This document shows, one piece after another, positions 5,665 through 9,575 of a stretch of DNA of 43,585 bases; position 1 is the stretch's first letter; each line of letters begins with the position of its first letter. The notes under the pieces are model-generated. The model made no database searches and was not told where the DNA came from. It saw only the letters and a list, made by a program, of their open reading frames with translations. The stretch covers positions 1 through 43,585 of the forward strand of contig JABIGL010000180.1 of the NCBI GenBank assembly GCA_018650185.1, given 5' to 3'. This DNA is from Chloroflexota bacterium. Its GTDB lineage: Bacteria; Chloroflexota; Dehalococcoidia; Lucifugimonadales; Lucifugimonadaceae. A program made the position numbers and the translations under genes.

Positions 5665-6468
5665 CTAGTCCGGGTTCGAGTTCGGATGATGATCCATTAA
5701 CTGGGACAACAAGGCAGGCAGCGCGGTTCCCGCGGGTGCACGGATGACGACGTCACAGTCGGAACTCAGCCGCGTCTCAGAGGTGTTGATCTCGACCAAT
5801 TTAGCGCCGTTAGCTCGTGCGATTCTGGGCAGTCCACCTGCGGGCCTGACAGTGGATGAGCTTCCCACAACGAGGACGCAATCGGCCTTGTCCGTCTCGG
5901 CACGGGCATTAGCGAGCACTTTTGGCGGTATCGGTTCGCCAAACAGCACCGAGTCATATTTCACCGGACCGCCGCACAGTTCACATGGCGGGGCCGGTCG
6001 CCTGGCGAACAGATCAGGGCGTGGCGTGCGGTTCTCACACTCGACACACCTGAGGAAGCGTCTCGAACCGTGGATCTCTACGACGTTCTGCGTCCCGGCG
6101 TCGGAGTGAAGGCCGTCAATGTTCTGGGTGATGAGCGAACGCACAAATCCCGCGTGTTCCATCTCGACCAGTGCGATGTGGCCAGGATTTGGTTTCGCGT
6201 TTCGGACCGATTGGCGTAGCTCCGCCACCCACGGCTCAACGGTGCGTTCCATCTCACGCTTCCACCACCTATCGGGATCTTCCAGGAAGCTCTGGTATCC
6301 GTTTCCGGACGGTGTGCCGTGTTTGGTCCAGAGGCCCTCTGAACCCCGGAACGGTGGGATGCCGCTCTCGACTGAGACCCCGGCACCGGTCATAGCGACC
6401 ACGTACTCCGAAGACGAAATGAGACGTGCGGCGGCAACAAGGTCGGCGGAGATTTCAGCCTGAGTCAC
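5665..6468 (-). CDS. cobB: NAD-dependent protein deacylase, sirtuin (Sir2/CobB family)
   Basis: Removes acyl groups from protein lysines using NAD+. The 267-residue protein carries the full sirtuin set: GAGVSVESGIPPFRG (NAD-binding, residues about 28-42), TQNIDGLHSDAG, the catalytic histidine in VEIHGS, a zinc ribbon C-V-E-C ... C-E-L-C, then VLFGEPIP and VVGSSSTVRPAGGLP. It starts with GTG at 6468, preceded by AGGTGA. The gene begins inside the 3' end of recF (14-bp overlap), so the two are translationally linked. It is probably a regulator of metabolic enzymes such as acetyl-CoA synthetase; no such target lies nearby. Confidence 0.93.
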   Translation of the reverse strand: MTQAEISADLVAAARLISSSEYVVAMTGAGVSVESGIPPFRGSEGLWTKHGTPSGNGYQSFLEDPDRWWKREMERTVEPWVAELRQSVRNAKPNPGHIALVEMEHAGFVRSLITQNIDGLHSDAGTQNVVEIHGSRRFLRCVECENRTPRPDLFARRPAPPCELCGGPVKYDSVLFGEPIPPKVLANARAETDKADCVLVVGSSSTVRPAGGLPRIARANGAKLVEINTSETRLSSDCDVVIRAPAGTALPALLSQLMDHHPNSNPD

Positions 6469-7690
6469 GCGTCACCTGACCAGATTGAACGGTCATTCGT
6501 GTCGCACCGGACAAAAAGGAGTCCTCGACTCGGTCGAAATCGGTGGTCGTGATGAGGACCTGCTCGTAGGGGGCCACGTTCTCTAAAACGAGCCTGCGGC
6601 GTGATTCATCCAGTTCCGAGAGTACGTCGTCCAGTGCCAGGACGGGAGTCCGGCCCGTCGCTGAAGTGACAAACGCTCCTTCAGCGAGCCGTAGCGCCAG
6701 TGCGATGGTGCGGGCCTGTCCACGGGATGAGAACGTACCTGCGGGTTCGTCGTTCAGGCTCAGCGCAATCTCGTCTCGGTGCGGCCCGATCACGGTCTGG
6801 CCCTGGCCGACCTCACGCTGTCTCGCCGCGGTCAACGCCTCGCGCATTGTGGACATGAGGTCGATGGCGGATGCCGGGATCTCTTCGGGACCGTCCTCCG
6901 CCACCGCGGTAACTCGTGGCCGATAACGGACACCCAGCCTTTCGCGACCACCGGAAAGCGCCAGGTGCCGTGGAGCAGCCTCTTCAGCCAGACGCTCTAC
7001 TGCCCGTGTTCGCCGCTCGACAATCGCGGCGCCCTCGTTGACCAGCCTGTCGTCCCAGAACTCCAACTCGTCGGAGCCTACGCGCCCGTCACGCATCTGG
7101 CGGAGGAGGTGATTCCGTTGTGTCACTACACGCCCGTAACGCTGGATCATTTTTAGATACGCGGGATCGCTTTGCGAAATCAAGATATCGAGATAGCGCC
7201 TCCTTACGGATGGGCTACCGGTCACCAGTTCGATGTCCTCAGCGGAGAACGCAACCACGTTCACCGCTCCCACAAATTCGGACGCCGGTCGTTGGACGCC
7301 GTTGACCCGCAGTTCTTTCTTCACCGATGGGGCGGGTCTCGCGCCTCCGCTGCCGGGTTCCGGAGTACGGGGAATGACATCGAAATCGATCTGGGACTGA
7401 ACGGTCAGCTCCGCATCGCGCGCAATCCCGGCGATCTGCACGTGACCGCCGTTCTGCACAACGTCCCAGCCGAGAAGCTCACGATCGGACGAGGAGCGTG
7501 GTGACTTGGCGATGGCGACCATGTATATGGCCTCCATCAAGTTGCTCTTACCGTGCCCGTTTGGACCCTGGAACACCGTGATCCCGGGTTCTAGTTCGAG
7601 CGTGCATTCCGGGTAGTTCCGGAAGTTTGAAAGATTGAGTTTCGTGATGCGGATTTGGGAGGTCCCGGGTAGGAGCTGGTTTTTCTTCAT
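6455..7690 (-). CDS. recF: DNA replication and repair protein RecF
   Basis: An SMC-like ATPase that helps load RecA at single-strand gaps. Visible are the N-terminal KLNLSNFRNYPE segment, the Walker A GPNGHGKSN, the family signature GPHRDE, a FSSRGQART signature loop and Walker B LALDDVLSELDESRR. The reading frame is open up to 7762, but the extra 24 residues (cysteine- and serine-rich) do not look like RecF, so the ATG at 7690 (MKKNQLLPG) is preferred; AGGGA lies directly before it. Length from there is 411 residues, within or slightly above the family range. In many bacteria recF sits with dnaN and gyrB; here it heads a recF-sirtuin pair instead. Confidence 0.93.
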   Translation of the reverse strand: MKKNQLLPGTSQIRITKLNLSNFRNYPECTLELEPGITVFQGPNGHGKSNLMEAIYMVAIAKSPRSSSDRELLGWDVVQNGGHVQIAGIARDAELTVQSQIDFDVIPRTPEPGSGGARPAPSVKKELRVNGVQRPASEFVGAVNVVAFSAEDIELVTGSPSVRRRYLDILISQSDPAYLKMIQRYGRVVTQRNHLLRQMRDGRVGSDELEFWDDRLVNEGAAIVERRTRAVERLAEEAAPRHLALSGGRERLGVRYRPRVTAVAEDGPEEIPASAIDLMSTMREALTAARQREVGQGQTVIGPHRDEIALSLNDEPAGTFSSRGQARTIALALRLAEGAFVTSATGRTPVLALDDVLSELDESRRRLVLENVAPYEQVLITTTDFDRVEDSFLSGATRMTVQSGQVTRDSG

Positions 7691-7879
7691 TCCCTGCGGG
7701 GCGGATGAGCCCAGGTGAAGCGAGATGGACTCACACTCACACGGAGGCACGGATTTTAGCACCGGCGTCCCCGTATGAATCCACCAGCGTCACACAGGCA
7801 TCGCGAATCGATTCACCCACATCTAACCGAGCAGATCAATACAAAACGGCAACTCATCAGGGCGTAGCAAAGGAAGCGA

Positions 7880-8980
7880 TTGAGAATTCCGTGGTCATAT
7901 CTGTTCATGGGTCTGACAGCGGTCGGAATCCTTTTGTTCTTTGTTCTGGGTGGGCCGCAAGCGTTGCGCGTCGGATTGTTGAACAAGGAGACCATCGTCG
8001 TACCCCCTGATCCAGGCAACCCGTCGGCACAGGGACGGACCCTGGAGCTAGTGACGTTGTTACCGCCTGACGGCATCCAGGCCATCTTGAATCCGCAGTT
8101 CATCAGCCCTGCGGAGGCGACGCGTTACGTCGCAGATGAGCCTGTACTGGGCGTGACCATCAACGGCGACAGCAGGGCCTACTCCATTCCGTTTCTGAGC
8201 GGACGGGAGGTGGTGAACGATACCGTGGGAGGGATTCCTATCGCTGTCACCTGGTGACCGCTTTGCTTTACCGGCATCGGGTATGCCCGGACGATAGAGG
8301 GACAGGAACACACCTTTGGGGTGTCAGGAAAGCTGATCATGAATGCTCTGGTGATGTATGACCACCAGAGTGGCACGTTGTGGAGCCAGTTCCTTTCGCA
8401 GGGGGTCAAGGGTGAGTTGGCCGGGCGAAGGTTGGAAACGATTCCGCTGGTTCAGACGACGTTCGGACAGTGGGTATTGGAGCACCCGGATACTGCAATC
8501 CTGGACAAGGGGCGAAGCGGCTCGTCCGACAGGTACGGCGGTTACTACACCAACAACGATGCCGGAGTGATCGGCGAGTCAAACGGGGACGACCGTCTGG
8601 ACCGCAAGGACAAGGTGGTTGGAATTGGGTTCGATGAGGGGCCCAAGGCGTTCCCCCTCTCCGCGTTGGGCGACAGGCCGGTGGTGAACGACCATGTTGC
8701 CGGTGAGGATGTGGTGCTTTTCTTCCAGCCAAACACCGAGACCGCGCTTGTATTCAACCGGAAGTTGAACGGCGAGCGTCTCGAGTTCGAACAGGTGGTC
8801 GACGACGGTACGGCTTTGTTGCGAGATCGCAAGACAGGTTCGCTGTTCCTCCCGTTCACCGGGATGGGGATAGAGGGCGAGTACGTGGGACAACAGCTCG
8901 AACGAATCCATTCCGTTGTGTCGTTCTGGTTTGCGTGGTCAGATTTCTATCCCGAGACTGAGCTGTATACGAGGACGTGA
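7880..8980 (+). CDS. DUF3179 membrane-anchored selenoprotein (UxxC), in-frame TGA read as Sec
   Basis: Read through the TGA at 8255-8257, this is one 366-residue protein. It starts at a TTG (7880) with AAGGAAG just upstream, followed by an N-terminal membrane helix (about residues 6-25) and an extracytoplasmic DUF3179 domain. The domain signature VVNDTVGGIPIAVT is followed by U126-P-L-C129, where the family normally has C-P-L-C, then TFGVSGKL and YDHQSGTLWSQ. The second half (for example RPVVNDHVAGEDVVLF) continues the fold to 8980. Without readthrough the domain would be cut within its core. The U-x-x-C suggests a redox role, but the function of DUF3179 is not established. A hairpin at 8271-8290 fits a bacterial SECIS. 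The downstream GTG at 8321 is probably a false start. It is divergent from recF and followed by apt. Confidence 0.88.
8255..8290 (+). promoter_or_regulatory. Candidate bacterial SECIS element and Sec codon in DUF3179 gene
   Basis: The TGA is at 8255-8257. After a 13-nt spacer, CCGGCAT (8271-8277) pairs with ATGCCCGG (8283-8290) with one bulged C. The loop is CGGGT and has G as its second base. The distance from the TGA to the loop, 20 nt, lies in the range known for SelB-dependent bacterial SECIS elements. Structure was read by eye. Confidence 0.68.
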
Positions 8981-9050: not shown

Positions 9051-9575
9051 ATGGAGCCGACCTTGGACCTGAAAAACTGGATCCGTGACATCCCGGACTA
9101 CCCGCAGCCGGGCATCCTGTTTCGTGATTTGACGCCGCTGTGGAAATCACCCGAGGCGTTCAACTACACAGTCGATAGTTTTGCGGAGCGCTTCGGTGGT
9201 TCGACCATCGATGCTGTAGCAGGGATCGAGTCACGCGGGTTCATGTTTGGCGTGCCGCTGGCGTTGAAGCTAGATCTGCCTTTTGTTCCCCTCCGCAAAG
9301 AGAACAAGCTTCCTCCGGAAGTCATCGGCGTGGATTTCGAACTCGAATACGGAACCGGCCGCATGGAGATGCGGGTAGATGCGCTTGAGCAAGGTGACAG
9401 CGTGCTGGTGGTGGATGACCTGCTGGCGACCGGCGGAACGGCGGAGGCGGCGGCGAAACTCATCGAACAGGTAGGCGGGCAGGTGCTTGCGATGGCTTTT
9501 GTGGTGGAGTTGGACGCATTAAACGGACGGGACGTCCTGGAAGGCCACGAGATCCACTCCCTGGTCACGTACTAG
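9051..9575 (+). CDS. apt: Adenine phosphoribosyltransferase
   Basis: Converts adenine and PRPP to AMP in purine salvage, in the cytosol. The 174-residue protein is full length for the family: DIPDYPQPGILFRDLTPL near the start, the IESRGFMFG loop, the flexible-loop region PLRKENKLPPE, and the PRPP-binding motif VLVVDDLLATGGTAEAA (about residues 121-137). The ATG at 9051 is accepted because the conserved N-terminus begins a few residues after it. It ends near a convergent small gene whose terminator may serve both. Confidence 0.96.
   Translation: MEPTLDLKNWIRDIPDYPQPGILFRDLTPLWKSPEAFNYTVDSFAERFGGSTIDAVAGIESRGFMFGVPLALKLDLPFVPLRKENKLPPEVIGVDFELEYGTGRMEMRVDALEQGDSVLVVDDLLATGGTAEAAAKLIEQVGGQVLAMAFVVELDALNGRDVLEGHEIHSLVTY

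Follow-up and report, generated by a model that had tools for sequence, protein, structure and literature searches.

This locus raises the question of whether the TGA at positions 8255-8257 ends a gene or is translated as selenocysteine (Sec). Judging from sequence comparisons, we consider it very probable that this UGA is read as Sec and that the product of the gene is a DUF3179-family selenoprotein. The window, by which we mean the whole stretch of 43,585 nucleotides analysed, is contig C132 of a fragmented metagenome assembly (3.08 Mb in 212 contigs), and its host is a marine SAR202-related member of the Dehalococcoidia (Chloroflexota).

Reading frame across the TGA

The initial annotation had described two contiguous frames in the same phase, split only by the TGA, and our translation reproduced them. 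A single plus-strand frame of 366 residues (7880-8980) runs from TTG at 7880 to TGA at 8978-8980, with TGA 8255-8257 as codon 126. Across that codon it reads AVTW-U-P-L-C-F-T, as had been proposed, and in the alignment the TGA falls where the CPLC motif has its first Cys. The partner residue, Cys129 (TGC, 8264-8266, plus strand), is invariant in the alignment. A likely ribosome-binding site, AAGGA (7870-7874, plus strand), lies 5 nt before the TTG. In a profile search, the match to PF11376 (DUF3179) extends over residues 64-360, spanning the internal TGA (E 2.6e-80; 270 bits against a gathering cut-off of 27), and takes in profile positions 2-292 of 292. NCBIfam contains no model that matches the protein. 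The hydrophobic N-terminal stretch of residues 7-25 (7898-7954, plus strand) is, by its composition, a likely membrane anchor or signal-anchor, and the earlier reading of a membrane-anchored U-x-x-C protein is consistent with both the sequence and the structure model described below. TGA is an ordinary stop for other genes within the window, and inspection of the frames there revealed no other convincing read-through gene.

Conservation of the TGA column

The host assembly contains eight DUF3179 copies, four of which have one in-frame TGA each. DUF3179 was found in 36 of 61 genomes of the same bacterial family, where copies with one TGA number dozens and a single genome may carry up to six TGA-bearing copies. 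When all retrieved copies were translated with TGA left open, 58 of the 62 in-frame TGAs fell in the U-x-x-C column and four fell elsewhere (95 DUF3179 domains of the bacterial family, 28,861 codons). Chance placement in this column is excluded. The column occurs in five motif classes: UPLCFT, UPICF/YT, UTLC, UILC and UPLCGS. Three of the four stray TGAs sit where relatives carry Gly or Trp, one base off, and these three may be mutations or errors.

One DUF3179 copy (L105, G012:C1:2387562-2388005) carries an additional in-frame TGA upstream of its UPIC motif, at a position where relatives have Gly. G012 is a single-contig genome, and the coordinates of this copy are identical in Candidatus Lucifugimonas marina JH1073. 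Its extra TGA may be a nonsense mutation, an error, or the mark of a protein with two Sec residues.

The initial annotation had proposed aligning the TGA column, and this alignment showed that many paralogues have TGA there and some have Cys. A divergent paralogue in the host genome (L007, C99:30142-31131) reads WSPFC, with Ser in the Sec/Cys position and the second Cys kept. The occurrence of Cys, or of Ser in this one paralogue, at the Sec site indicates that the fold can do without Sec. On a tree of 174 proteins, built with the Sec column left out, the state changed between Sec and Cys at least six times. Divergence from a Sec copy of the same genus at codon positions 1, 2 and 3 was 0.25, 0.14 and 0.52 before the TGA and 0.18, 0.16 and 0.52 after it; the two sides diverge in a similar way, so that the part downstream is still under selection as protein.

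A scan of 84,980 species genomes with a pattern made of the TGA, the following codons and the loop of the hairpin discussed below gave at least 117 matches, and every match listed lay within a DUF3179 frame. By record titles, the matches listed represent at least eight phyla: Chloroflexota, Zixiibacteriota, Fidelibacterota (Marinimicrobia), Methylomirabilota, Tectimicrobiota, Nitrospinota, Acidobacteriota and Verrucomicrobiota. Most come from metagenome bins, so that an isolated unexpected placement could stem from faulty binning. The matches listed include Candidatus Lucifugimonas marina JH1073, a SAR202 strain in culture with a single-contig genome (PMC10444878). Its matches share their coordinates with G012, which places it in the family of the window and indicates that it carries the window's orthologue with the TGA, located at G012:C1:283233-284123.

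These distributions bear on the suggestion that the TGA is a sequencing or assembly error of TGC or TGT, or that TGA is generally recoded to another residue in this organism. The fragmented metagenome source would favour an error, but the same TGA occurs in independent assemblies, including the single-contig genomes G001, G012 and G030. Against general recoding stand the other genes of the window, which end at TGA, and the concentration of in-frame TGAs in one column of DUF3179. We regard both explanations as extremely improbable.

The SECIS-type hairpin

A SECIS-type hairpin, CCGGCAU-CGGGU-AUGCCCGG (8271-8290, plus strand), begins 13 nt after the UGA. Its arms occupy 8271-8277 and 8283-8289 (8290 if a C is bulged), and its loop, CGGGU (8278-8282), starts at a distance of 20 nt from the UGA, with G as its second base. 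The stem of 7 bp has one mismatch or bulged C, with six of seven pairs in register. The published SECIS model calls for a loop of 3-9 nt with G in the first two loop positions, a distance of 16-37 nt from the UGA and a stem of 4-16 bp, and the window hairpin has this geometry. It is among the weaker hairpins of its relatives. In isolation it folds at -7.2 kcal/mol (z -0.63), where the published limit is -7.5 kcal/mol or lower; the same 24 nt give -6.8 to -9.6 kcal/mol in nearly all relatives. The 61-nt fold around it has a z of 0.07, and when the same codons are reshuffled synonymously, 21% of the shuffles pair equally well. Single-sequence folding, with neither z value significant, was therefore rejected as proof of a SECIS element, and comparison was needed.

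Among 19 close sequences, 98.5% of the cells of the seven-pair stem are paired, with compensatory changes, against 15-54% in slid registers, and none of 500 shuffles reached the observed covariation. The stem cells are 93.6% paired in 40 sequences from several phyla, with double changes at four pairs; here too none of 500 shuffles reached the covariation score, and slid registers were at most 54% paired. In the pattern that gathered this wider set, parts of the 5' arm and the loop were prescribed and the 3' arm was left free beyond its first base, so that the sequences were not chosen for pairing as such. Over the 12 codons that follow U, codon identity at invariant residues is 0.84, versus 0.55 elsewhere, and one Gly codon after U is GGG in all 19 close sequences. 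In one genome (G055; L071, G055:C25) the window's orthologue is present as a tandem pair, one copy with Sec and one with Cys, and each shares about 75% identity with the window protein. The hairpin is preserved in the Sec copy and lost from the copy with TGT, where only three of seven pairs remain. The hairpin that the initial annotation had marked just after the UGA is thus, as far as sequence can tell, beyond chance by comparison with relatives; its fold as a lone sequence is not.

The covarying hairpin also weighs against reading the TGA as a real stop, with the gene truncated or decaying and the second frame silent or restarted at GTG 8321. Gene callers would indeed give two ORFs here, as the initial annotation had anticipated in speaking of two truncated genes, and some copies in the family are broken by extra TGAs. 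Yet the TGA stands in the same column of dozens of intact copies and in at least eight phyla, with the downstream frame intact, and a product restarted at GTG 8321 would miss the first strands of the first repeat of the protein. A real stop is accordingly very improbable, and the reading as Sec is retained in what follows.

Selenocysteine machinery

The initial annotation had called for selA, selB, selC and selD in the same genome, and the host assembly contains selA (526 bits), selB (334 bits), selD (357 bits) and a tRNA-Sec (66.5 bits, anticodon TCA). The selD gene (L031, on contig C119) itself has one in-frame TGA, making the selenium-activating enzyme likely to be a selenoprotein as well. 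In the bacterial family, selA was found in 26 of the 31 genomes with TGA-bearing DUF3179 genes versus 14 of the 30 others (p 0.003). The five such genomes that lack selA are all less than 90% complete, and selA was also found in genomes without DUF3179. Among the at least 117 matches listed in the wider scan, selD shares an 8-kb stretch with the Sec-DUF3179 gene in eight loci (L137, L186, L148, L161, L219, L223, L226 and L243), two of which are from Marinimicrobia.

Protein architecture

The full structure model (pLDDT 89, pTM 0.86) shows two repeats. The first (residues 88-205; 8141-8494, plus strand) holds U126 and C129, and the second (residues 245-358; 8612-8953, plus strand) has no Cys/Sec pair. 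A profile comparison identified the two halves as repeats of each other (99.9%, E 2e-32). Structure comparison gave each a Rieske-like fold, ranking Rieske-fold proteins first with best Z scores of 9.4 and 8.3, and the best 50 VIA matches per half were all Rieske-domain proteins or NirD. For each repeat, the alignment to proteins such as the NirD small subunit and Rieske ferredoxins covers about 92-97 residues (Z 8-9). Unlike those proteins, the repeats lack the C-x-H and C-x-x-H ligands, which are absent among the conserved columns of the family alignment, and they have no profile-level similarity: profile comparison of the halves with Rieske proteins gave probabilities of 0.7% and 9.4%, with no convincing match, and Foldseek E-values were weak (best 0.015). 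A search for solved structures related by sequence found none. On the strength of the first ranks in structure comparison, tempered by the weak Foldseek and sequence-profile results, both modelled repeats probably have a Rieske-like fold without a cluster.

We also considered whether CPLC corresponds to the C-P-x-H of Rieske proteins. Neither the profile comparison nor the aligned ranges supported this; by those ranges, which are approximate, the Sec precedes the first Rieske ligand loop.

Pairs of the CxxC type are able to bind metals. The U/C pair might accordingly bind a soft metal ion or a cluster, in which case Sec would tune the site and the Rieske-like fold would be the remnant of a metalloprotein; the best matches of each repeat to Rieske-fold proteins would fit such an origin. 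The missing ligands, the presence of only two conserved cysteine columns in the alignment, the lack of a convincing profile match for either half and the position of the Sec all speak against metal binding, which we think unlikely.

Possible function

A selenol/thiol redox protein acting outside the cytoplasm is our preferred role, held with moderate confidence and suggested by the anchor helix together with the U-x-x-C pair. Following established knowledge of Sec insertion, SelB with Sec-tRNA(Sec) would bind the hairpin and place Sec at the UGA, giving the full protein. The N-terminal helix would hold the protein in the membrane, with the two-repeat beta domain outside. Less surely, U126 and C129 may form a selenenylsulfide or selenol-thiol pair. 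Outside the membrane this pair would transfer electrons or reduce a compound that is oxidised or electrophilic, and the second repeat may be structural or bind a partner. The presence of several Sec and Cys paralogues in one genome would fit with differing partners or substrates.

In many Dehalococcoidia the gene has the same neighbours, a recF-like gene diverging upstream (6455-7762, minus strand) and an adenine phosphoribosyltransferase-like (apt) gene downstream (9051-9575, plus strand). Comparison of gene neighbourhoods gave conserved synteny for recF, apt and sir2 and no functional clue, and the recF and apt flanks were set aside as a guide to function.

More speculatively, DUF3179 could have arisen by duplication of a Rieske-like domain, with loss of the Fe-S ligands and gain of a selenol-thiol redox pair in one repeat. 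It would then be a selenium-based electron carrier or reductase, whose paralogues multiplied in SAR202 to oxidise resistant dissolved organic matter or detoxify it. We offer this as a doubtful but conceivable history.

Relation to known selenoproteins

DUF3179 is listed as a predicted selenoprotein family, with the motif UxxC/T, in two catalogues (PMC9312934, PMC13188914), and this is therefore a known kind of selenoprotein and not a new family. Comparison thus supports the Sec-DUF3179 reading of the initial annotation, which had left open whether Sec forms of the family were already described; they had been catalogued. The entry is traced there to Zhang and Gladyshev 2007 and an Olavius symbiont (PMC9312934, PMC13188914). 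The catalogued family has the same Pfam entry, PF11376, and the same motif with Sec first, with one Sec per protein as here. Its host is a deltaproteobacterial symbiont of Olavius, whereas the present host is a SAR202-related member of the Dehalococcoidia with several Sec paralogues per genome. DUF3179 occupies one row in the catalogues, without structure, SECIS comparison or distribution. In the partial literature collection searched, we found no account of the expansion in SAR202, of the repeat architecture, or of the spread over phyla with several Sec paralogues per genome (four here and six in some relatives). No paper in that collection was found to mention SAR202 and selenoproteins together, though the word "selenocysteine" does turn up.

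With other UxxC selenoproteins, such as Sec thioredoxin and the Prx-like thiol:disulfide oxidoreductase, the window protein shares a Sec and a Cys separated by two residues and the existence of Cys homologues. Unlike them, it has by its model no thioredoxin fold and would be a membrane-anchored two-repeat beta domain.

Implications

Splitting of Sec-DUF3179 genes into two ORFs by gene callers means that up to about six Sec proteins per SAR202-related genome are likely to be misread. The Sec and Cys paralogues that occur side by side, including the tandem pair, provide a natural comparison of Sec and Cys at one site, and the orthologue in a cultured strain makes the prediction directly testable.
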